A stretch of 64,000 bases of DNA from Actinomycetes bacterium (GCA_021838445.1 JAKCDU010000012.1:1-64000), one strand, 5' to 3'; counted from the first letter of the stretch, positions 50,889 to 62,238 are shown. Program-made: numbers and translations. Notes: generated by a model not told the origin, from the letters alone.

Positions 50889-51269
50889 ATGCTCACCGCC
50901 TCGCTCGCAGTGTCCGGGCTGGTAGTTCCAGCCCTCCCCCCGTTTCCTGTCCCCGCTCTCCCGGTCCTGGCCGCTATCCCGCTTCTGGCCATGCCCGCCG
51001 TCAGCCTCAACCCCAATCCATCCGACCTGCCGGGTTCGAACGTGCTCAGCGAGCTGACCAACGGTTTGGGGGCGTGGGCGCTGATCGCCGCCATGGTCGG
51101 CATCGTCGTCGGGGCGGTGATGTGGGCTTTCGGCCACTACAGCCAGAACTGGCAGCAGGCTTACAACGGGAGGAGAGGGGTCATCGTCTCGGCGCTGGCC
51201 GCGGTGCTGATCGGGGGCGCCCCGCTGATCATCAACTTCCTGGTCCAGAAGGGCGGCACCATCCGTTGA
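50889..51269 (+). CDS. VirB2/TrbC-like pilin-type membrane protein (DUF6112-like)
   Basis: The 126-aa protein has a hydrophobic, Pro-rich N-terminus that may be a signal sequence (to ~42), then two membrane helices (~61-82 and ~99-119). They are joined by a short basic/aromatic loop (HYSQNWQQAYNGRRG). This is the layout of actinobacterial T4SS pilin-like proteins placed directly before TrbL. The ATG at 50889 follows AGGAGG (50874-50879) with good spacing. First gene of the transfer operon; its stop overlaps the TTG of trbL. Confidence 0.75.
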   Translation: MLTASLAVSGLVVPALPPFPVPALPVLAAIPLLAMPAVSLNPNPSDLPGSNVLSELTNGLGAWALIAAMVGIVVGAVMWAFGHYSQNWQQAYNGRRGVIVSALAAVLIGGAPLIINFLVQKGGTIR

Positions 51270-52384
51270 TCGCCCTTCCGACCGACCCGCTCTCCACTTC
51301 GGGACTGTGCCTGCCGACCATTCCCTGCCCGTCACAGATCATCGATGCCGGCAACAGCGTCGGGGGGGCTCTCGCCGCTCAGGCCGCGACGTCGGTGTTC
51401 CAGAGCGTGGCGGATGGTCTCAACCAGGCCACCGACTGGTTGTTCGGGACCATCGTGCAGCTGGTCACCGACTCGGCGTCGCCTCAGATGGGCGCCAGTT
51501 GGTTCATCAAGGAGATGGGGCTGATGGAGCAGGTCGCTCTGGCCGTGGTGCTACCCGTCCTCCTGGCCGCCACCATAGGGCCGCTGCTGCGCCAGGACGG
51601 TAGACGACTACTACGGGTCTGGGGAGTCGGGTTGCCTCTTGCCCTGTTCTCGGGACTGGCGGCCTCGCAGGCGGCCGGGCTCCTGCTGTCGGCGACCGAC
51701 GCCATGTGCGCCCTGGTGCTGGGCTCGGACATGCAGCGTCTCGGTCAACAGTTCAGCAATGCCATGGCCGCCGCCGCGCTCAGCCCGGCCCCCCTGTTCG
51801 TGCAGATCGCCCTGGCCCTGATAGCCGTCCTGGGCGCAGTGCTGGTCTGGCTCGAGTTGATGGTGCGTTCGGCGGGGGTGTACGTGGCGACGTTCTTCAT
51901 GCCGCTGACCCTGATCGGCTACATCTGGCCGGCTACCGCAGGGATGGCCCGTCGTGGCATCGAGATACTGGTCACCCTGATCCTGTCGAAGTTCGTGATC
52001 CTGGCTTCGATCGGGCTGGGGCTGGCCGCCTGGGCGGGCGGGGGCGTCGATGCCAGCTTGTCCGGGGCGGCGGTGCTGCTGATCGCAGCTTTCGCCCCGT
52101 TCGCGCTGCTCAGGTTGGCGCCGGTGGTGGAGGCCTCGGCCATCGCCCACCTCGAGGGGATGGCGCGCCGGCCGGTCCGGGCCGCCACCAGAGCCATGGC
52201 CACCCCGCTCCATCCCGCCGCACAGGCCGGGATGGCCGCGGCATCGGCCCGCCGCAGCGGGGCCGCCGAGGAGGGGGGTGGGCTCGGGACCCGCCCGGTG
52301 ACGAGCCAGTCCCTGCCGTGGCGCAGAGCCGACTTCCCTCTCGGGGACCGACCGGGGGGTGGGGCAGGAGCCCAGGATGGCTGA
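51266..52384 (+). CDS. TrbL/VirB6-like conjugation membrane protein
   Basis: The 372-aa protein has six or more hydrophobic segments between ~80 and ~300: LMEQVALAVVLPVLLAATIGP, LFVQIALALIAVLGAVLVWLE and others. It also has the conserved MVRSAGVYVATFFMPL segment seen in TrbL proteins. TrbL/VirB6 forms the inner-membrane channel platform of T4SS. The hydrophilic C-terminal tail (~310-372) is Arg/Gly-rich. The start is TTG 51266, overlapping the upstream stop as TTGA. Its end overlaps the ATG of the SCO6880 gene. Confidence 0.82.
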   Translation: MIALPTDPLSTSGLCLPTIPCPSQIIDAGNSVGGALAAQAATSVFQSVADGLNQATDWLFGTIVQLVTDSASPQMGASWFIKEMGLMEQVALAVVLPVLLAATIGPLLRQDGRRLLRVWGVGLPLALFSGLAASQAAGLLLSATDAMCALVLGSDMQRLGQQFSNAMAAAALSPAPLFVQIALALIAVLGAVLVWLELMVRSAGVYVATFFMPLTLIGYIWPATAGMARRGIEILVTLILSKFVILASIGLGLAAWAGGGVDASLSGAAVLLIAAFAPFALLRLAPVVEASAIAHLEGMARRPVRAATRAMATPLHPAAQAGMAAASARRSGAAEEGGGLGTRPVTSQSLPWRRADFPLGDRPGGGAGAQDG

Positions 52385-53885
52385 TTCCCACCGCTACAGC
52401 TTCGGCCCGCTGGAGCGGCGGGGGCTCCTGCTCGGCCTCGGCCCCCTCCAGCTGTCCACCATCGCCGCCGGCCTGCTGCTGGCCGTGACCGCTCGGGCCG
52501 GGCTGGCGGGGACGGCGGGCCTGATCGCCGCCCTCGTGGTCCTCCTGGCTTCTCTCGTCGGTGCCCTCTGGACGAGGGAGGGGCGTCCGCTGGTGGCCCG
52601 CGGCGGCATCGCCGCGGCCTGGCTCCTGCGCAACCGGGCCGGTCCCGCATTCGATCCGGCTCCCACCACCGGTACGGCAACCGGAGTCCGGAAGGGACGC
52701 GTCGATGGTAGGGCCGCCCCCGGCCCGCGCCGGATGGTTCCCGGGATGGCCGTGCTGGAGGATCCCGGCCTGCCCGGGGAGGAACCGCTCGGGGTGATCC
52801 GGGACAGCCGGTCGGGTACCTGGGCGGCGGTCCTCGCGGTGCGGGGTACGCCGCTTGCCCTCCTCGACCCGCCCGACCAGAGCCGCTGCCTCGAAGGGTG
52901 GCGTCAGGTGCTCGGGTCGCTGTGCCGGCCGGGCAGCCCCGTCGTGAGGGTGCAGTGGGTCCAGCGAACATGGAACGGCTCGGAGGCCGAGGTCTCCGAT
53001 GGTCGCGGGTGGGATGCCGGCCCTGAGGTGATGCCCGGGCGTTCCGTGCGGCGCGCCGTTCCTGAGTGGGGCGGGGGGTCGGTTTCCTCCCCGTCGGATA
53101 GCTACCGCCAGGCGTGGGCCGAGGTGGCGCCGCGCATCACCTACCACGACACCTGGCTCGTCGTGGCTGTCGGCTCGGCGGGGGAGCGGTTCGCTCACCA
53201 GCCGGGGCGTCGCCGCGGTGACGAGGTTCTGGCGGGGCTGCGAAGGGAGATGCGCATCCTGGGCGCTCAGCTCACCGCGGTGGACCTACGGCCGGGTCCG
53301 CCCCTCCACGGAGATGAGCTGGCCGACCTGATCAGACGACCCCATGAGGAAGCCGCCAGGCGGCGGCGCGTCGCTCGCCCCTGGCCCACAGCTGTGGAGG
53401 ACCGATGGTCGTGCTGTCGCGCCGATGGCATGTGGCACGCCACCTTCTGGGTGGCGGAATGGCCGAGGGTCGAGGTGGGGCCGGACTTCCTCGGTCCGCT
53501 CCTGCTCGGGGAGGGCCGGCGCAGCGTCTCGCTGATCATGGCCCCGGTGGGGTCGGAGCGGGCCGAGCGCGAGGTCCGCTCGGCCCGCACCGCCGACGCG
53601 GCCGACCGCGAGTTGCGCGCCCGCGCCGGATTCCTGGCCAGCGCCCGGCGACAGCGCGAGGCGGACGGGGTCGAGCGTCGGGAGCAGGAGCTGGCCGAAG
53701 GCCACCACGACTTCCGCTTCTCGGGCTACGTGACCGTCTCGGGCCCCGATACCGAGACCCTGGCCGCGGCGTGCGCCGAAGTCGAACACGCGGCCCAGAG
53801 CTGCCGGTTGGAGTTGCGGCGCCTCTACGGTCGCCAGTTGGAGGCTCTGACCTGGACCCTGCCCTTGGGGCGCGGGCTGCGCTGA
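52377..53885 (+). CDS. SCO6880-family T4SS protein (VirB3/VirB4 N-part equivalent)
   Basis: The 502-aa protein has two membrane helices near the N-terminus (~16-60; GPLQLSTIAAGLLLAV and LIAALVVLLASLVGALW). This is like PrgI/VirB3, followed by a large cytoplasmic region without Walker motifs. Segments such as YHDTWLVVAV, LRREMRILGAQL and FSGYVTVSGPDTETLAAAC resemble the N-terminal domain of VirB4 ATPases. Together with the shortened VirB4 downstream it probably makes up a VirB3-VirB4 equivalent in two pieces. ATG 52377 overlaps the trbL stop. Confidence 0.78.
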   Translation: MADSHRYSFGPLERRGLLLGLGPLQLSTIAAGLLLAVTARAGLAGTAGLIAALVVLLASLVGALWTREGRPLVARGGIAAAWLLRNRAGPAFDPAPTTGTATGVRKGRVDGRAAPGPRRMVPGMAVLEDPGLPGEEPLGVIRDSRSGTWAAVLAVRGTPLALLDPPDQSRCLEGWRQVLGSLCRPGSPVVRVQWVQRTWNGSEAEVSDGRGWDAGPEVMPGRSVRRAVPEWGGGSVSSPSDSYRQAWAEVAPRITYHDTWLVVAVGSAGERFAHQPGRRRGDEVLAGLRREMRILGAQLTAVDLRPGPPLHGDELADLIRRPHEEAARRRRVARPWPTAVEDRWSCCRADGMWHATFWVAEWPRVEVGPDFLGPLLLGEGRRSVSLIMAPVGSERAEREVRSARTADAADRELRARAGFLASARRQREADGVERREQELAEGHHDFRFSGYVTVSGPDTETLAAACAEVEHAAQSCRLELRRLYGRQLEALTWTLPLGRGLR

Positions 53886-53894
53886 GGCACGACG

Positions 53895-55190
53895 ATGAAG
53901 CCGCCTCCCGCCCACCGGGCCACGACCGCCCATCTCCAGGCGGTTTACCCCTTCGCGTCCTCCGGCGGGATCGGCGGGGCAGGTCCGCTGCTGGGCAGAG
54001 ACGTGTTGGGCGGCCCGTTCTCGTTCGATCCGTGGGAGCTGTACCGGTCGGGCCGTATCACCAACCCCAACCTGGTGGTGCTGGGACAGCTCGGCCGGGG
54101 CAAGTCCACCTTCGTCAAGATCCTGGTCTGGCGCCAGCTGGCCTTCGGTCGCCGGGCGTGGATCATGGACCCCAAAGGGGAGTATGGTCCGCTGGCGCGG
54201 GCCTGCGGCACAGAGCCGCTGGCCCTGGTCCCCGGCGGTTCGGTCCGGCTCAACCCTCTCGACGGCATCAGTCGCACCGCGTCCGGCGGCGGCACCGGTG
54301 GCACCCGGCGGGCCACGGATCTGGTGTCGACCCTGGTGGCCACCTCACTCCGGCGCCTGCTGGCGCCCGAGGAGAGGGCGGCCATCGACCTGGCCGTCCA
54401 CCACCTGGCCGAAGGTGGGCCGAGCCCCACCCTCCCCGACCTCGTGGAGGTCCTGCTCCAGCCCTCACCGGAATCGGCCGCAACCGTCGGGACCGACGTG
54501 GCCGGCCTGGCGAGGGCCGGGCGCGACGTGGCCCTGGAGATCCGTCGCATGGTGAGAGGAGATCTGGCCGGCATGTTCGACGGGGAGACCTCGGGGCGCA
54601 TCGACGACAGTGACGCCGCGGTGGTGGTGATCGACCTCTCCGCGGTGTTCGCGTCCCCGGCCCTGCCTCTGATCATGACCTGCGCGGCGGCGTGGCTGCA
54701 GGGAGCGCTGGCCGCGGCCGACGGAGTCAAGCGTCTGGTGGTGATCGACGAGGCGTGGGCCATCCTCAATGACCCGGCCATCGCCCGCTGGTGTCAGGCC
54801 AACTTCAAGCTGTCCCGCTCGTTGGGTATCGCCAATGTGGTGGTGGCCCATCGGGTGTCCGACCTGTCGGCGGCCGGCGCCGACGGATCCGCCGAGGAGA
54901 AGTTGGCCACCGGTCTTCTGGCTGACTCCGAGACCAGGGTGGTGTTCGGCCAGCCCCCCTCCGAGGCCCGAGCGACGGCGAGGGAACTGGCGCTCAGTCG
55001 GGCCGAAGCCGACCTGATACCCCGGCTCCCGAGAGGCATGGCCCTGTGGCGGGTGGGATCACAGTCCCATCTCGTCGAGCACGTGCTCGGCCGCGCCGAG
55101 GCGGTGCTGGTCGATACCGACGCGGCCATGCGGGACAACCCCCGCCAGTTCCCAGGATCTGGTGCCGATTTCTCGGGAACTGAAGGGTAG
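53895..55190 (+). CDS. VirB4-like T4SS ATPase (C-terminal ATPase part only)
   Basis: This is the AAA motor that energises pilus assembly and transfer. The 431-aa protein has Walker A GQLGRGKS (64-71), WIMDPKGEYGPLARACG, Walker B LVVIDEAWAIL, and the sensor region VVAHRVSDL. A normal VirB4 is about twice as long; the missing N-terminal half seems to be supplied by the SCO6880 protein. The final ~20 residues (FPGSGADFSGTEG) run to the point where the recombinase element begins, so the natural C-terminus may have been altered by that insertion. Confidence 0.85.
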   Translation: MKPPPAHRATTAHLQAVYPFASSGGIGGAGPLLGRDVLGGPFSFDPWELYRSGRITNPNLVVLGQLGRGKSTFVKILVWRQLAFGRRAWIMDPKGEYGPLARACGTEPLALVPGGSVRLNPLDGISRTASGGGTGGTRRATDLVSTLVATSLRRLLAPEERAAIDLAVHHLAEGGPSPTLPDLVEVLLQPSPESAATVGTDVAGLARAGRDVALEIRRMVRGDLAGMFDGETSGRIDDSDAAVVVIDLSAVFASPALPLIMTCAAAWLQGALAAADGVKRLVVIDEAWAILNDPAIARWCQANFKLSRSLGIANVVVAHRVSDLSAAGADGSAEEKLATGLLADSETRVVFGQPPSEARATARELALSRAEADLIPRLPRGMALWRVGSQSHLVEHVLGRAEAVLVDTDAAMRDNPRQFPGSGADFSGTEG

Positions 55191-55238
55191 GTGCTGGTGC
55201 GGAGCCTACCGGCCGCCGTGGGTTGGGGGAACCGGCGG

Positions 55239-55646
55239 TCAGCCGGCTTTGCGCCCGGGCGGGGTTTCGGGTGTGAGGAGCTGGTGGACGCGCTGGTGGG
55301 AGATACCGAGGATGGCGGCGGCGTCGCGCATGCTGATGCCGCGGCTGGTGAGGGCGACGGCGGCTTTGCGGGTCTGCTCGATGGCCAGGCGGTCGGCGTT
55401 GCGGGCGTGCTCTCGGGCTTTTCGGGCTTGCTCGACGGTTCGGCCGGTGGCTTTCGGCAGCACGGGTCGGGCCACGAGCTCGATGGCAGCTTCGTCGGTC
55501 TGGAACCACAAGGCGGCGGCTTCGCGCATGCGGGTGAGGGCTTGGTCGATGGTCTTGCCCCAGGTGTGGACCCGGGGTTCCTCGGCCAGCTCGACCGACC
55601 AGCGCCCGTCGTCTTCGTGTTCGAGGCACGCGGTGTAGGTGGTCAC
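55239..55646 (-). CDS. hicB: HicB family antitoxin
   Basis: The 135-aa protein has a partly degraded RNase-H-like HicB fold at the N-terminus (YTACLEHEDDGRWSVELAEEP, TWGKTIDQALTRMREAAALWF). A C-terminal DNA-binding helix-turn-helix follows (SRGISMRDAAAILGISHQRVHQLL). It should neutralise HicA and repress its own operon. The GTG at 55646 is placed by GGAGG (55655-55651). The frame upstream to 55793 is the shadow of hicA. It ends 48 nt from the virB4 stop. Confidence 0.88.
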   Translation of the reverse strand: MTTYTACLEHEDDGRWSVELAEEPRVHTWGKTIDQALTRMREAAALWFQTDEAAIELVARPVLPKATGRTVEQARKAREHARNADRLAIEQTRKAAVALTSRGISMRDAAAILGISHQRVHQLLTPETPPGRKAG

Positions 55647-55675
55647 GGTGTCCTCCTTCGTGTTGGTGTCGATTC

Positions 55676-55876
55676 TCATTTGGTCAGCCATTTGGGGCCG
55701 AGGCAGGGCTCGAGGTCGCGTTCTATGGACCGCAGCGTGCCCGGGGTGATGTCGCCGGCGTGGAGGGGGATCACGGTCTGGCAGGTGGCGCACCGCCAGA
55801 TCTGGTGCGATCCTCGTTGGCGCACGGAGTGGCAGCCGTGGTCGAGCAATATGCGGATCACCGCCCGAGCCGTCAC
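55676..55876 (-). CDS. hicA: HicA family toxin (mRNA interferase)
   Basis: The 66-aa dsRBD-like protein has the catalytic His24 in RQRGSHQIWR, then VIPLHAGDITPGTLRSIERDLE, the HicA pattern. HicA cleaves mRNA; HicB blocks it. The order hicA-hicB with a 29-nt gap is usual. Two extra Cys (CATC) give a small CxxC. The GTG at 55876 is 4 nt downstream of the recombinase-like gene stop, so hicAB may be read from the recombinase operon too. Confidence 0.88.
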   Translation of the reverse strand: MTARAVIRILLDHGCHSVRQRGSHQIWRCATCQTVIPLHAGDITPGTLRSIERDLEPCLGPKWLTK

Positions 55877-55880
55877 CGCC

Positions 55881-57632
55881 TCAGTCTACCGTCCTAGACG
55901 GATACCTGTCCAGGTCATTGGACGGATGTTGTTCTGTCCGGTGGGCGAGGTCGGGATGGCCGAGGGTGCCGGCGTAGCGCATGGCGGTGCCCACGGTGAT
56001 GCCGAAGAGGTCGCAGATACGGCGGATGTCGCCTCCGGTGGCGTGGATCTCGGCGAGGATGCGGTCTTCTCGGAGGGCTTGGGGGCGCAGACCGGTTCCC
56101 TTCCAGGGGAACTGTTTGCCGATCGGGACCAGTCTGGGGGCGCTGACCCGGCCGACGAACAGGTGGGGATTGATGCTGGCCGGCCAGGTCCGGTTGCGGT
56201 GATCGAGCCAGGCGCCGAGGCGTATTCGTACGGGGCCGGCGAGCGGGATATCTCGGCCGTCGAGGTGGAGTCGTCCGTCGACGATGTCGGTCAGTTGCAA
56301 CCCGGTGAGCTGTTGGGCAGTGAGGGCGTGGAAGGCGACCAGGGCCACCGCCAGCGCCACCGCCGGGTCGGCCGAGTCGAGGGCGTGGCGGACGGCGACG
56401 GTGTCGAGAGGCAAGGGCACGGTGGCGTTCACGGCCGTGATGGGCATGCCCCGGGTGGGGTTGGTGAAGATCAGTTTGCGGGCCTTGAGGACCTTGAACA
56501 GCGACCGCAGTCCGTACTCGGCCCAGTTGCGTCTCGACCCGCTGGGGGGCAGCGCGGCGCGCACCTGTTCGGGCGTGATCTCGGCCAGGGATTGGTGGCC
56601 GGCGTCGGCCCAGGCCTCGATGATTCCGGCGATTCCCATGATGTGGATGCGGGCGGTTTGGGGATCCCGGGAGCGTTGCCGGGGGGCGGTGCTGCTCCCG
56701 TCGAGCATGATCTCGAGCCAGATCTCCAGCTGCGCTTTCATCGGTTCGGGCAGGTGGGCGGTCTTGGCCGCGAAGTAGCGCTCGACATGGGAGATGCGGT
56801 CGTCGATGAGCATGTCGGCCGCCGCCACGACGTCGAGGGTGGAGGTGATGTTGCCGTCATAGCGGGGCAGTTGGGCCACGTCGGTGGCGCGGATCTTCGC
56901 TCCTGGGGTGTCTTGGAGGACCTGCAGGAGTCGCAGGGATCGGATGACATCGTTGGTCTGGCGTCGGGACCGTCCGTGGCGAGCGGCGTGGTCGCGTACC
57001 ACCGCGGAGCAGTGTCGGATCAGGTCGCTGTCGGCGTCGAAGGCCCGTTCGCGTACCACTACCGGGTCGGGGTCCATCCAGAACAGGGACTCCTGACGCC
57101 AGGCCAGGGGCCGGAACCCGGTCGGGGTCGGCCGGGATCGTCGTCCCTCCGGTCGGAGCCGGGGGGTGCGGGGCCGCCCGAAGCGCATGTTGGCCAGGAA
57201 CAGCTGCTGGCCATACCGGTTGGCGCCGGGAAGGTCGACTGCTCGGCCGGGTTCTTGGACGCTGCGGGCCTGTGTAAAGCACAGCCGGCAGGCCCGGGCT
57301 TCGCCGACGTGGGTGTGGCGTCCGCAGTATTGGCAGTCACCCAGTGGGTAGTGGGTGTGCCACCACCGGCAGCTCCAGCACCGCCAGTTGTGGGCTCGAT
57401 ACACCCCCCAGGCCAGACAGTCGCGGCAGGTGCCCAGGTGCAGCGGGGCGCCGGGATGGCAGCGGTCGCACAGTCCCTCGCTGAAGTATCGGTCCGCGGT
57501 GGCGCATTTGCGGCAGGCAGGCGGAGTGAACGGCCCGCCCGGCAGGCACTCGTAACAGAAGTCGACCCGCGGTCGCACCCAGGCGACCCGCCGGACCTGG
57601 CAGGCGTTGCAGCGCGCCGGCGGGCGGGTCAC
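55881..57632 (-). CDS. zinc-ribbon recombinase-like protein, third gene of the recombinase trio
   Basis: The 583-aa protein has eight CxxC pairs in residues 8-118 (C8/11, 26/29, 40/43, 55/58, 69/72, 85/88, 100/103, 115/118), i.e. probably four zinc ribbons. A helical region and a C-terminal tyrosine-recombinase-like fold follow. In that fold, HALTAQQLTGLQL lacks the first catalytic Arg. The H-x-x-R box is reduced to Q-A-L-R, while a Tyr remains in AMRYAG. It therefore looks like an accessory or partly inactivated recombinase working with the complete enzyme at 57957-59036. GTG 57632 overlaps the HTH gene stop as GTGA. A 134-bp fragment of a second copy lies at 59211. Confidence 0.8.
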   Translation of the reverse strand: MTRPPARCNACQVRRVAWVRPRVDFCYECLPGGPFTPPACRKCATADRYFSEGLCDRCHPGAPLHLGTCRDCLAWGVYRAHNWRCWSCRWWHTHYPLGDCQYCGRHTHVGEARACRLCFTQARSVQEPGRAVDLPGANRYGQQLFLANMRFGRPRTPRLRPEGRRSRPTPTGFRPLAWRQESLFWMDPDPVVVRERAFDADSDLIRHCSAVVRDHAARHGRSRRQTNDVIRSLRLLQVLQDTPGAKIRATDVAQLPRYDGNITSTLDVVAAADMLIDDRISHVERYFAAKTAHLPEPMKAQLEIWLEIMLDGSSTAPRQRSRDPQTARIHIMGIAGIIEAWADAGHQSLAEITPEQVRAALPPSGSRRNWAEYGLRSLFKVLKARKLIFTNPTRGMPITAVNATVPLPLDTVAVRHALDSADPAVALAVALVAFHALTAQQLTGLQLTDIVDGRLHLDGRDIPLAGPVRIRLGAWLDHRNRTWPASINPHLFVGRVSAPRLVPIGKQFPWKGTGLRPQALREDRILAEIHATGGDIRRICDLFGITVGTAMRYAGTLGHPDLAHRTEQHPSNDLDRYPSRTVD

Positions 57633-57952
57633 AACGGCGGTTCGGACTTCGGTCTACCAAAGCGCGGTGTGACCCTCGGCGAGGCCGTCTCCGAGCTGGC
57701 CGTCTCCTGGCGTCGGGGACGGCGGGCCGCGACCTTCTCCGGTTCGCGGATCAACAGCGCGGCCGGGTCGCAGTCCAACACGGCGCAGATTACGTCGAGA
57801 TCATCGAGTCGGATCGAGGTCGGCGTCCCGGCCCACAAAGCCGACATCTTCCCGGCTGACAGCTCCAGCCCGGCGTCGCCCAGCCGGCGGCGCATCTCCG
57901 CCGACTTCCAGATTCCGCGCTCGGCCGCTTTCAACCGCAGGTTCCACTGCAC
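57629..57952 (-). CDS. small helix-turn-helix protein of the recombinase trio
   Basis: The 107-aa protein has an HTH of the XRE type: GIWKSAEMRRRLGDAGLELSAGKMSALW and then RLDDLDVICAVLDCDPAALL. A basic Ser/Arg/Pro-rich tail follows. The GTG at 57952 starts MQWNLRLKAAERGIW. It begins 4 nt after the tyrosine recombinase stop and overlaps the next gene. It probably binds element DNA and regulates the operon or assists recombination (inference). Confidence 0.82.
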   Translation of the reverse strand: MQWNLRLKAAERGIWKSAEMRRRLGDAGLELSAGKMSALWAGTPTSIRLDDLDVICAVLDCDPAALLIREPEKVAARRPRRQETASSETASPRVTPRFGRPKSEPPL

Positions 57953-57956
57953 CAGG

Positions 57957-59036
57957 TCAGCCTCCTTCGGCGAAACGGGTTTCCAGGCGCCGGTTGGCGG
58001 TCGTCCACGCCTGCTCGATGTGGTCGTCGCGGACGTGGATGTATCCCGACGTGGTGGCCAGCCACTGATGGCCCAAAAGCTCCTGCAGGGCCTTGAGGTC
58101 CATGCCGGCGCCATACAGCGAGGAGGCGCAGAAGTGGCGCAGCACGTGAGGGCTCAGCCGCCCCGACCATCCCGGCAGCCAGGCCGCGGTGGCCACGCAC
58201 AAACCTTGGCGCAACGCGTCGTCGCCGACCCGCCGGCACCGCTCCAAATCAGGGTCGTGCCGTTCGCTGGGCAGCATCGGGGCGTCGGGATCGGACCAGT
58301 CATCTCCGAAGCGATGACGGACCTCGCCCAGCCACCAATCCATCAGCCGGTCGGCGCCGTTGATCGCCGGGACCAGCCGGGCTTTCGGGCCGCGGCCCCG
58401 GCTTCCCTTGCCATGACGGACGTGCAGCTTGCCGAACCCGCCCAGATCGGGCCGCCAGTCGCGGATGTCCAGCATCACTGTCTCGTTGATCCGCAACCCC
58501 AGCCGGCGCCACAGCGACGCCGCGAAATAGTCCCGGGCGGCCGGCAGGTACTTGCGGGCCCCCACCACCGACACCCGCCACTGGGCAAACAGCTCATCGA
58601 CCTCGACCTCCGAGGGCGGCACCCGCACCTTGCCCAACGAAGCGCCCGACTGCCGGTTGAACTCGTCGATCGGCTGCTCCACCACGAACCCCGTCAGAGC
58701 ACGAATGTCGCCCTGATAGCGGCTGATCACGAACTCGAAGAACAACGCCAACGCCCCCGCCTTGCCCGCCCGGGTGGACACGCTACGTCCGGCCCGACGC
58801 TGCTCGACCAGAAAACGGTCCGCGTCGTCACAGGTCGCCGACCACAACGGCCGGCCCAACGACCGGGCGAACTCGATGATCGTCGACCGGGTGTGGCTCA
58901 CATGCCCGTCGCCCAGGCCCGCGGCTGCCATCGCCAACGCGTACTGGTCGACGATCTCCTGCTCGAAGTCCTCAACCTCCTCGCCGCTGCGCAACGCCCG
59001 AGGCGAACCGATGTTGCGAACGGCGGCCAGGCTCAA
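57957..59036 (-). CDS. tyrosine recombinase / site-specific integrase
   Basis: The 359-aa protein has a SAM-like core-binding domain (~20-120) and a complete catalytic set. Arg182 is in RRLGLRINE, Lys210 in RHGKGSR, His297 and Arg300 in LSPHVLRHF, His323 in LLGHQ and nucleophile Tyr332 in SGYIHV. It should cut and rejoin DNA as the main enzyme of the element. The frame starts at TTG 59036; a later start would cut into conserved sequence only slightly. First gene of a tight three-gene operon. Confidence 0.92.
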   Translation of the reverse strand: MSLAAVRNIGSPRALRSGEEVEDFEQEIVDQYALAMAAAGLGDGHVSHTRSTIIEFARSLGRPLWSATCDDADRFLVEQRRAGRSVSTRAGKAGALALFFEFVISRYQGDIRALTGFVVEQPIDEFNRQSGASLGKVRVPPSEVEVDELFAQWRVSVVGARKYLPAARDYFAASLWRRLGLRINETVMLDIRDWRPDLGGFGKLHVRHGKGSRGRGPKARLVPAINGADRLMDWWLGEVRHRFGDDWSDPDAPMLPSERHDPDLERCRRVGDDALRQGLCVATAAWLPGWSGRLSPHVLRHFCASSLYGAGMDLKALQELLGHQWLATTSGYIHVRDDHIEQAWTTANRRLETRFAEGG

Positions 59037-59404
59037 CGACCAGCCGGTTCACTCAGACAGCACATTCGTCGACTATACCGACTAACCGTCAGGAATCCCG
59101 ACCATCCGTCATTCAAACGTAGTTGGACCGCGAACCCGCCCCTACCTGCACCAGCCCCTCAAAGCACGCCGCAGCCCACAGACGAACCCGAAGGAATGGA
59201 GATTAACCCCCGCCAGCGCCACGGCGGGGTCGGCCGAGTCCAGGGCGTGGCGGACAGCCGCGGTGTCGAGGGGCGAGGGCACGGTGGCGTTCACGGCTGT
59301 GAGGGGCATGCCCCGGGTGGGGTTGGTGAAGATCAGCTTGCGGGAACAGAGATTGACCCGGCCGGTTCGGCGCCGGGCCACGGCCAGCCCGGAAGGTCTT
59401 CCAC
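59037..59404. other. intergenic edge of the recombinase element
   Basis: This 368-nt stretch between the recombinase start and virD4 holds no complete gene. Its left part (59037-59150) is relatively AT-richer and should contain the recombinase promoter. The right part holds the decayed 134-bp copy at 59211-59344 and about 60 nt that lead into virD4. Confidence 0.7.
59211..59344 (-). pseudogene. fragment of a second zinc-ribbon recombinase gene
   Basis: These 134 nt align without gaps to 56349-56482, inside the 583-aa gene, with about 11 differences by hand count (roughly 92% identity). They lie in the same orientation. Translated, the shared piece reads RKLIFTNPTRGMPLTAVNAT and on to AVRHALDSADPAVALA. 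It is a relic of an earlier or second copy of the element. Confidence 0.88.
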
Positions 59405-61132
59405 TTGACCGCCGACAGCACCCGTGGACCCCGGGCCGGCTCGCCCTCGGAGACGCTGCTCCTCGGCGTGCTGGGTGTGGTCGCGGCGCTCGGAGCCTGG
59501 TTCTGGGTGGCCTCCAGCCTGGCCGCGTGGGTCAGCACCGGACGCTGGCCCGACTACCCCCTCCGGGGGGCCTGGGTGGCGGCCTTCCGTTTCGGGGCCG
59601 ACGCCGGGCGGCCGCTGCGGGCCTGGGTGGGGCGCGGCTCGCCCGGCCCCGCCCCGGGGGGCGCCTCGGCCTTGGTCTTCTACCCCATCGGGGCGGCCAT
59701 CGGAGCCGGCCTGGCGATCGTCGCCGTGGTGATGGCCCGGGCCATAGCCCGTCCCCGCGACGCCAGGACGGTTGGTGCCCGGTGGGCGAGGCGCGCCGAC
59801 CTGCGGCCGGTAGCGGTGCGAAGCGGGCGGACCCGGGGCCGGTTGGTGATCGGTCGACCAGCCGGCGGGCGGGGCCTGGTGGCCACCGAGTCCCGCCATT
59901 CGCTCCTGGTGATAGGCCCCACCCAATCGGGCAAGACCACCGGCCTGGCCGTGCCCGCCATCCTCGAGTGGTCCGGTCCGGTGGTCGCCACTTCGGTCAA
60001 GGACGACCTGGCCCAAGCCACGTGCGGGTGGCGATCCCGGGGTGGCCCGTGCTGGCTGTTCGACCCGACCGTGAGCAGCGCGATGGAGGGGCCGTCGCGC
60101 TCGCGATGGTCTCCGCTGTCGGCATGCGGCACCTGGTCGCAGGCCCAGAAGATGGCCTCCTGGCTGGTGGAGTCCACGCCGGGGCGTAGCGGCATGGCCG
60201 ACGCGGCCTTCTGGTACAGCGCGGCGGCCAAGCACCTGGCCCCCTTGCTCCTCGCCGCCGAACGAGGCGCCCTGCCCATGGCCGACGTGGTCCGTTGGAC
60301 CGACACCGAGAACTTCGACGAGCCGGGCACCCTCCTCCACCTGAGCGGGGAGGCCGAGGCGGCGGTGGCCCTCCAGGCCTGCCAGGGTCGCGACGAGCGC
60401 ATCCGCAGTTCGGTCACCACCACCTTGGAGACGGTGCTCTCACCCTTCTCCGATCCTCACGTGGCCCGTTCCACGGCGGCCACCGACGTCGATGTAGCCG
60501 CCCTGCTGGAGCGGAGCGGCACCCTCTTCCTCTGCGGTCCCTCCCACGAGCAGGCCCGGGTCCAGGGGCTGTTCGCATCCCTCGTGTCCACCGTCATCGC
60601 CGCCGCCGTCACCGAGGTCGGCCGCCGGGGCGCCCCGCTCGATCCGCCCCTGCTGGTGGTGCTCGACGAGGCGGCCAACATCGCCCCGGTGCGGGACCTC
60701 GACACTCTGGCTTCGACCGCCGCCGGTCTCGGCATCCAGTTGGTCACGGTCTGCCAGGACCTGTCACAGCTGACGGCCCGCTACGGCCCCGAGCGGTCGC
60801 GGACCATCGCCAACAATCACCGGGCCAAGCTGCTGCTGAGTGGGGTGGGTGACCTGCAGACCCTGGATCTGCTCTCGGGCCTGGCCGGTGAGCAATCGGT
60901 GCGCGAGACGTCGTTCACCAGGGACATGAGGACCGGCTCCGCCACCCGGTCCGACTCGACCCGGATTCGCCGCCTGGCGCCCACCGACGAGCTGCGCCGC
61001 GTGGCCCCCGGCCACGGTGTACTGGTCTACGGTCACCTCCCGCCGGTACGGGTCAGGCTGCGCCCCTGGTACTCCGATCCGGTGCTGCGCCGACGGTCCG
61101 AGGCGGGCGGAGCGACCCCGGGGGGCGCCTGA
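59405..61132 (+). CDS. VirD4/TraG-like type IV coupling protein
   Basis: It delivers the relaxase-DNA complex to the secretion channel. The 575-aa protein has two N-terminal membrane segments (~18-44 and ~90-112). Walker A VIGPTQSGKTT, SVKDDLAQATCGW, Walker B LLVVLDEAANIAPV, and QDLSQLTARYG follow, with the typical TraG tail. It starts at TTG 59405, without an SD, about 60 nt after the recombinase relic, so its original upstream context (behind virB4) is lost. Last gene of the transfer module. Confidence 0.88.
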   Translation: MTADSTRGPRAGSPSETLLLGVLGVVAALGAWFWVASSLAAWVSTGRWPDYPLRGAWVAAFRFGADAGRPLRAWVGRGSPGPAPGGASALVFYPIGAAIGAGLAIVAVVMARAIARPRDARTVGARWARRADLRPVAVRSGRTRGRLVIGRPAGGRGLVATESRHSLLVIGPTQSGKTTGLAVPAILEWSGPVVATSVKDDLAQATCGWRSRGGPCWLFDPTVSSAMEGPSRSRWSPLSACGTWSQAQKMASWLVESTPGRSGMADAAFWYSAAAKHLAPLLLAAERGALPMADVVRWTDTENFDEPGTLLHLSGEAEAAVALQACQGRDERIRSSVTTTLETVLSPFSDPHVARSTAATDVDVAALLERSGTLFLCGPSHEQARVQGLFASLVSTVIAAAVTEVGRRGAPLDPPLLVVLDEAANIAPVRDLDTLASTAAGLGIQLVTVCQDLSQLTARYGPERSRTIANNHRAKLLLSGVGDLQTLDLLSGLAGEQSVRETSFTRDMRTGSATRSDSTRIRRLAPTDELRRVAPGHGVLVYGHLPPVRVRLRPWYSDPVLRRRSEAGGATPGGA

Positions 61133-61188: not shown

Positions 61189-62238
61189 TCACGGCGGGCG
61201 TCGGTCGGGGCGGCGGGTCGGCGGGTCGGCGGGCGGCTTGCGGGCCCGGCTGGGCGACACCCGGGGTGGCTCTCCGGGCATCTTGGGGTACACGGGAGGC
61301 CAGGGAGCATCGGTCAGCCCCGACGCCAGGTCGCGACGCGACATCTCGAGGAGCGGTTCCAGGGACTGGGGGCGGCTTGCCTCCCAGGGGTCACCGTCGG
61401 CGGCGACCCGGGCCGGAACGGTGACCAGGGTCAGCTCGTCGGGGGCGATCGTCGGCAGCTCTTCCCAGGCGAACGGGGTTGACACCTGACCGGCGGCCCG
61501 GGCCCGAACCGACCAGGCTCCGAACACCGTCTTGTGGGGGGCGTTCTGGTTGAAGTCGACGAACACCCGGGCTCCCCGCTCTTCCTTCCACCACGCCGAG
61601 GTGATCAGATCGGGCCGGCGACGCTCGAGCTCGCGGGCCACGGCGACCGCTGCGGCGCGAACTTCGATCGACCCCCACCGGGGCTCCAGGCGCACATAGA
61701 CATGGACGCCGCGGTTGCCGGTCGTCTTGGGCCAGCCCACCAAGCCCACCGAGCGCAGCAGGAGATCGGTCTCCTGGGCTGCTTCGCGGAGCATGTCGAA
61801 CCCCACCCCCGGCGACGGGTCCAGATCGATGCGCAGCTCATCGGCGTGGTCGGGGTCGGAGGCCCGGGTGGGCCAGACGTGGAAGCCGAGGCAACCCAGG
61901 TTGACCGCCCACAGCACATGGGCCAGGTCGGCGGCAACGAGCGCGTTGGAACTGGTCCCGTTCGGCGTCGAAACGACGGTGGTCTGCAGCCAGTCGGGGT
62001 GGCTGTCGGGTACCCGCTTCTGGAAGAACGAGCTGCCCCCGGCGCCGTTGGGGAACCGCTGCATCAGGACCGGCCGCCCTCCCATGGCGTCCATCAAAGG
62101 CGCCTCGACGAACTGGTAGTAGCGGACCAGGTCCAGCTTGGTGTGGCCCCCGTCGGGGAAGAAGACCTTCTCCGGGCTGGTGATCTCGATGGTCCGACCG
62201 GCCGCCTCGACCGCGACCCGACGAACCGCTCCGGCCAC
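61189..62238 (-). CDS. ligD: LigD-type polymerase domain protein (stand-alone PolDom)
   Basis: This is an archaeo-eukaryotic primase-like polymerase of bacterial non-homologous end joining. The 349-aa protein has ITSPEKVFFPDGGHTKLDL, the metal-binding pair Asp138/Asp140 in RIDLDPSPG, then TTGNRGVHVYV and VFVDFNQNAPHKTVFGAWSVR. The nuclease and ligase domains of full LigD are absent, and no ku is in the window; mycobacterial-style split LigD proteins exist. The Pro/Arg-rich tail is probably disordered. GTG start at 62238, 7 nt after the DoxX stop. Confidence 0.92.
   Translation of the reverse strand: MAGAVRRVAVEAAGRTIEITSPEKVFFPDGGHTKLDLVRYYQFVEAPLMDAMGGRPVLMQRFPNGAGGSSFFQKRVPDSHPDWLQTTVVSTPNGTSSNALVAADLAHVLWAVNLGCLGFHVWPTRASDPDHADELRIDLDPSPGVGFDMLREAAQETDLLLRSVGLVGWPKTTGNRGVHVYVRLEPRWGSIEVRAAAVAVARELERRRPDLITSAWWKEERGARVFVDFNQNAPHKTVFGAWSVRARAAGQVSTPFAWEELPTIAPDELTLVTVPARVAADGDPWEASRPQSLEPLLEMSRRDLASGLTDAPWPPVYPKMPGEPPRVSPSRARKPPADPPTRRPDRRPP

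Follow-up and report, generated by a model that had tools for sequence, protein, structure and literature searches.

The three genes at 55,881–59,036 of the window, the whole 64,000-nt stretch of Actinomycetes bacterium DNA analysed here (GCA_021838445.1, JAKCDU010000012.1:1-64000), appear to form the transposition module of a site-specific tyrosine recombinase (YR) transposon. We give this reading a probability of roughly 0.85 on the sequence evidence. The trio is a small transposon family of soil actinobacteria. Its T4SS-borne members sit at one codon at the 3′ end of virB4, always antisense to the operon. The initial annotation had suspected a separate class of transposon that obeys a targeting rule of its own, and the alignment of flanks gave both the ends and the target, the rule being the virB4 3′ end.

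Such a family follows a simple rule: in conjugation systems with little else in common, the insertion is at a single codon near the virB4 end. It would also add to the cases, proposed for Tfp of SE and GinC of GInt, in which an active recombinase pairs with an inactive one, and its invariant zinc ribbons offer a handle on the targeting. The small element can ride conjugative plasmids without obviously breaking them, and sometimes HicAB or metal/redox-like genes (merR, thioredoxin, arsC) are carried along by it.

Genes, ends and mobility of the element

The trio had been described as an overlapping operon. Its frames do lie on the minus strand as given, but the real unit is wider than the trio (Table 1). 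The overlap holds for the HTH and Zn583 genes, by 4 nt, and not for the YR and HTH genes, which are 1 nt apart. The element runs in the order of B-end, HicAB cargo, Zn583, HTH, YR and D-end, and lies antisense within a conjugation (T4SS) operon, where virB4 and virD4 flank it. The true start of hicB is probably internal, so the hicA/hicB overlap is nominal. A HicA-like gene follows the trio also at L005, L027, L028, L030, L031, L070, L127, L128 and L131.

Table 1. Positions of the element, its genes and its neighbours in the window
Feature	Position	Strand	Remark
Catalytic tyrosine recombinase (YR), 359 aa	57957..59036	-	R-K-H-R-H-Y all kept
HTH_26 (Cro/C1-type) DNA-binding protein, 107 aa	57629..57955	-	E 3.6e-12
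583-aa protein (Zn583)	55881..57632	-	eight CxxC and degenerate YR fold
HicA-like toxin, cargo	55676..55876	-	PF07927, E 4.3e-12
HicB-like antitoxin with HTH, cargo	55239..55793	-	PF15919 and HTH_23, both under the Pfam cut-off
Whole integrated element, 4068 bp	55137..59204	-	from end geometry, empty sites and comparison of ~30 loci
B-end	55137..55151	-	11-nt tip AACCCCCGCCA, then arm GTTC (element strand: GAAC)
D-end	59184..59204	-	arm GAAC, 11 nt, 6-nt GAGATT at the outer tip (element strand: AATCTC)
Target half-site in virB4	55101..55136	+	GCGGTGCTGGTCGATACCGACGCGGCCATGCGGGAC, encoding ..VDTDAAMRD up to the junction
virB4-like conjugation ATPase gene	53895..55190	+	last 18 codons including the stop are element sequence
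virD4-like coupling protein gene	59405..61132	+	parted from virB4 by the element
Likely relict of an older tandem copy	59205..59354	-	AACCCCCGCCAG, 138 nt of the Zn583 gene, AGAGATT

Exact ends, forms with and without cargo, and empty sites are all found for this family. The end geometry is GAAC+11 nt at the B-end and 6+11 nt+GTTC at the D-end. The minimal relatives are 3473 bp long and contain only the genes of YR, HTH_26 and Zn583. Because some Arthrobacter copies differ in the final ~5 nt of the B-tip, the crossover position is uncertain by a few bases.

Empty sites occur in Arthrobacter plasmids, with a 4-nt overlap of virB4 and virD4, and in relatives of the host family (G003, G007, G012, G016 and G020), where the two genes adjoin or overlap. 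The closest one, in Arthrobacter U41 (NZ_CP015734), reads GGCATGAG directly followed by GCCCCGG. Its filled counterpart on FB24 plasmid 3 reads GGCATGAG, then AACGTTGAGAAGTTCG ... GAACCTGAGCGAATAGAGATA, and then GCCCCGG. The element alone lies in between, without target duplication relative to NZ_CP015734.

The whole element makes up a 3473-bp contig of Arthrobacter SO3, which matches three other replicons over its full length. Several further contigs are element-long, as multi-copy elements would be expected to give. At L023 (1-3394) and L090 (912-4305), the flank is 98.7% identical up to the exact D-end, from which two different elements of the family follow. The same cargo-bearing element stands beside different D-side genes in the pairs L094/L104 and L092/L093. 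With the empty sites, the element-length contigs and the codon-exact virB4 junction, the flanks are not ordinary chromosome without precise boundaries, an outcome that the initial annotation had set against a transposon.

The cargo can reach several kb (merR, thioredoxin, oxidoreductase, DUF305, DoxX), and elements so loaded are found at more than one site. It also includes arsC. A block of merR-thioredoxin-NAD(P)/FAD oxidoreductase-DUF305 recurs in L087, L094, L101, L104 and L021 and hints at functions in metal or redox stress.

A single scan covering 84,980 genomes yielded 290 relatives, and the best 80 loci were read together with plasmid loci. All three genes are present in the same order at 87 of the 92 scanned loci, so the trio does co-occur in other genomes, where its failure to do so had been named as the other point against a transposon. 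Of the five exceptions, three are truncated at contig ends and the other two appear decayed. The family is rare, being found in 4 of the 296 sampled genomes of the phylum with the window's genome counted. The viral contigs contained one relative by an alignment query and none by a single-protein query. Text searches of open-access papers found no earlier description that joins virB4 targeting with such a trio.

The catalytic recombinase and its degenerate partner

The 359-aa protein matches Phage_integrase of Pfam (E 1.8e-14). All six catalytic residues, R182, K210, H297, R300, H323 and Y332, are invariant in 15 YR relatives, in agreement with its first description as a fully catalytic tyrosine recombinase. 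The HTH assignment of the 107-aa protein is likewise supported by its HTH_26 match.

Zn583 has no match in Pfam or NCBIfam. Eight CxxC had been counted in it, and the 16 Cys of these eight pairs are each kept in 56–59 of 59 aligned relatives. We read the pairs, at residues 8–118, as four putative C4 zinc ribbons. A profile search (hmmsearch) matches the protein to XerA (PDB 5hxy) at E 9.6e-7. Its AlphaFold2 model has a mean pLDDT of 82.7, and residues ~290–567 form a full YR fold in it, at a pTM of only 0.40.

The model matches 5hxy by Foldseek at E 1.2e-7, and it matches XerH with Z 15.0 and an rmsd of 4.1 over 258 residues. The superfamily feature, the YR fold with core-binding and catalytic domains, is present in Zn583. 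What had been called recombinase-like thus has a complete YR fold in the structure prediction besides the XerA profile match.

The full catalytic set of R-K-H-R-H/W-Y is absent in Zn583, and generally only Arg II and Tyr are kept. The Arg I position is T438, with Thr in 38 and Arg in 16 of the 59 relatives. The HxxR box is QALR, or Q/RxxR among the relatives, and its Arg (Arg II) is in 59 of 59. The GH position is GI/GL and the catalytic Lys is absent, while Tyr553 is kept in 58 of 59. The loss of the first Arg and the His with retention of a Tyr, as initially annotated, extends over the alignment in this form.

Since the Cys, Arg II and Tyr553 are conserved across the 59 relatives, Zn583 is, as judged from the alignment, a degenerate YR under constraint and not a decaying gene. 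Degenerate YR partners have precedents in Tfp of SE (PMC10214605) and GinC of GInt (PMC5385486).

The virB4 junction and the host locus

The junction falls at the same virB4 codon in about 30 loci, immediately after xxxx-[DEY]-T-[DNEQ]-x-x-[MWLI]-x-x. The taxa with this same-codon junction run from Acidimicrobiia to Nocardioides and include Frankia, Streptomyces, Arthrobacter, Pseudonocardia and Amycolatopsis, and the median identity among the compared VirB4 C-terminal halves is 29%. L070, L075, L099, L102 and L106, missed by the first pattern or left out, have the same codon on inspection. For L096, L113, L146 and L117, which are TraC-type or decayed, the fit requires a mutated arm or a 1-nt shift.

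The target DNA consensus has T at −29, CGACACC at −25 to −19, A at −17 and G at −7, and its last 6 nt are free. The likeness of CGACAC to CGAAC, the arm of the element itself, suggests a YR half-site. At the virB4 site, there is no target duplication and the 6 bp of the target stay at the B junction. A 6-bp asymmetry of the ends is present, and the 6 bp of the D-end are constant within a subfamily. A 6-bp footprint is known for Tn554 and SE elements (PMC10214605). The asymmetry here fits a moving footprint of that type, but we do not claim one, given the D-end 6 bp being invariant within subfamilies.

The orientation is fixed: 51 of 57 loci have an antisense D-side neighbour (p 6e-10), a count that takes in related and remnant loci and whose events are not fully independent. 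The element supplies virB4 with a short new tail and a stop, and virB4 of the empty relatives ends differently. The start of virD4 is intact beside the element.

A second branch lies next to or inside Tad/Flp pilus operons (L110, L111, L114, L116, L123-L126, L138, L141, L144, L024 and L025). It is mostly antisense, and the targeting rule given above was derived from the virB4 loci.

Between the window and G013, from another genus of the host family, dS is 0.30–0.57 for the element genes and 0.95–1.11 for virB4, virD4 and SCO6880. Between the window and the congener G001, it is 0.37–0.44 for the element and 0.15–0.20 for the flanks. The two comparisons go in opposite directions, and protein-level selection cannot give both. 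Therefore, independent insertion (or replacement) took place at one site.

Directly after the D-end (59,204) comes AACCCCCGCCAG, the same as the B-tip. It is followed by 138 nt of the Zn583 gene, 91% identical to the intact copy, and then by the D-end remnant AGAGATT and the virD4 flank. From its sequence, 59,205–59,354 is likely, not certainly, an older tandem copy that is mostly deleted, the doubt arising because the B-tip departs from the gene fragment in just three letters. The predicted circle joint ..GAGATT-AACCCCCGCCA.. is present at 59,204/59,205, as expected from tandem insertion.

The 138-nt repeat was also considered as an element end and was rejected in favour of the relict. This relict is absent from G001. 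In another congener, G002, virB4 and virD4 are separated by no more than a hicB piece and a D-end remnant, GGAACAGAGATT (L056; G002:C491:6300-7500).

In 30 of the host family's 32 genomes, the T4SS-like locus around the element (SCO6880-family, virB4C and virD4; 51,074–61,132 of the window) has been retained. A LigD-type polymerase gene (61,189–62,238) adjoins it in three of the family's genomes. Because of this retention and this neighbour, the locus may be chromosomal rather than plasmid-borne.

Known systems, rival readings and proposed mechanism

The trio resembles Tn554, SE and GInt yet lacks the defining features of each, as well as those of RIT and the IMEs. Tn554 and the actinobacterial Tn554-like elements (PMC3414803) are also site-specific YR transposons with two YR-fold proteins and a small protein, and they share the lack of target duplication and the 6-bp asymmetry of ends. 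However, both Tn554 YRs (TnpA and TnpB) are catalytic, whereas here the full motif is confined to the 359-aa YR. TnpC comes third there, whereas HTH_26 is in the middle here, a distinction drawn from the gene content of the 3473-bp elements. Moreover, Tn554 has no zinc ribbons, and its target is radC, or unknown for the Tn554-like elements, as opposed to virB4 with ..DTDxxMxx at the junction.

The SE elements (PMC10214605) are likewise target-specific, have inverted motifs at their ends and possess a YR-fold partner, Tfp, that lacks catalytic residues, and the 6-bp difference between the trio's ends recalls their 6-bp footprint. They differ in having four genes, intA-tfp-intB-srap, with two active YRs in gammaproteobacteria, against three genes with one active YR. 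Their 6 bp change at each move, whereas those of the trio's D-end are constant within a subfamily. The GInts (PMC5385486) share a third recombinase without the first Arg, GinC, and the insertion at a 3′ gene end that alters the C-terminus of the product. They differ by ginABCD with two full YRs, no zinc ribbons and other targets, against three genes with one full YR.

The RIT elements (PMC3414803) also have three overlapping genes, but ritA-ritB-ritC are all YRs with possible catalytic motifs, whereas the trio has one YR, one HTH_26 protein and one degenerate YR. Streptococcal IMEs in the ICE genes traG, snf2 and maff2 (PMC5357655) likewise target genes of conjugative elements. They use serine integrases, disrupt the gene and bear a relaxase, whereas the YR trio uses the virB4 3′ end with both genes apparently spared. 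As to the IME/ICE hallmarks, the minimal element has no further gene for a relaxase or T4SS but may have an oriT. Zn583 also has structural matches in MrpR and YopR of phage SPbeta. These two likewise reuse the YR fold for DNA binding, but they are regulators outside any transposon module. We know of no zinc ribbons in MrpR and YopR.

Membership in the Tn554 family, with the actinobacterial Tn554-like elements of Van Houdt et al. 2012 included, would account for the two YR-fold proteins (one ~360 aa and one long), the small third protein, the site specificity, the absence of target duplication and the 6-bp offset between the ends (PMC3414803, PMC10214605). We consider it quite unlikely, as the second YR is degenerate, the 3.47-kb element has no room for TnpC and the target is virB4, not radC. 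Moreover, pNOCA01 carries the trio once and, 85 kb away, a separate pair of 419 and 805 aa with catalytic motifs, which is unrelated to the 583-aa protein. FB24 plasmid 1, listed for Tn554-like elements (PMC3414803), has no relative of the trio.

Two other readings dispense with transposition. The block might spread only via homologous recombination in conserved tra genes, the trio being a passenger or a dimer-resolution module, and its high-identity blocks do sometimes extend into the 3′ part of virB4. In sliding windows, however, the high identity ends at the element ends, the codon-exact insertions are in virB4 genes that are ~29% identical and too diverged to recombine, and two different elements stand at the same base (L023/L090), so this spread is highly improbable. 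Vertical inheritance of the trio as a resident component of the conjugation locus, such as a regulator or switch, agrees with its same slot in several genomes of the host family and in Arthrobacter and Streptomyces plasmids. It is hardly tenable against the empty sites with overlapping virB4/virD4, the dS discordance in both directions, the trios in Tad operons of other hosts and the element-length contigs.

In the preferred reading as a site-specific transposon, the 359-aa YR would cut and join. It would excise a circle, in which the D-end GAGATT is joined to the B-tip AACCCCCGCCA between the inverted GAAC/GTTC arms. The circle would then integrate beside a CGACACC-like half-site, tolerating unrelated 6-bp spacers. 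Zn583 would be a non-cutting partner bound to the target or to one half-site. The HTH protein may be an architectural, directionality or regulatory helper. By the insertion in virB4, the element would travel on conjugative DNA, and the damage to the operon would be small because virB4 gets a short new tail and the virD4 start stays intact.

More tentatively, and at somewhat less than even odds, Zn583 could be a dedicated target selector in a role like that of TnsD of Tn7. It would read the DNA encoding the VirB4 C-terminal DT[DN]xx[MW] and recruit the catalytic YR, which would cut 6 bp further on. If so, YR transposons would target conjugation machines of widely differing ancestry, guided by a YR paralogue that is separate from the catalytic one and does not cut.

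More distant members of the superfamily occur in Mycobacterium and Peribacillus, with one zinc ribbon and the same degenerate motif and Tyr in the third protein. On a Peribacillus frigoritolerans plasmid (L155), a Bacillota trio of YR, HTH and pseudo-YR with one zinc ribbon adjoins a RadC-like gene with a JAB domain; Tn554 inserts into radC (PMC3414803). One locus, L069 (JAGWSF010000005.1), is filed under the Acidobacteriota MAG REEB343. At 45,615 nt, it has the same size and match as G001, which is placed in the window's own genus, and its label is a probable taxonomic mislabel or binning error.
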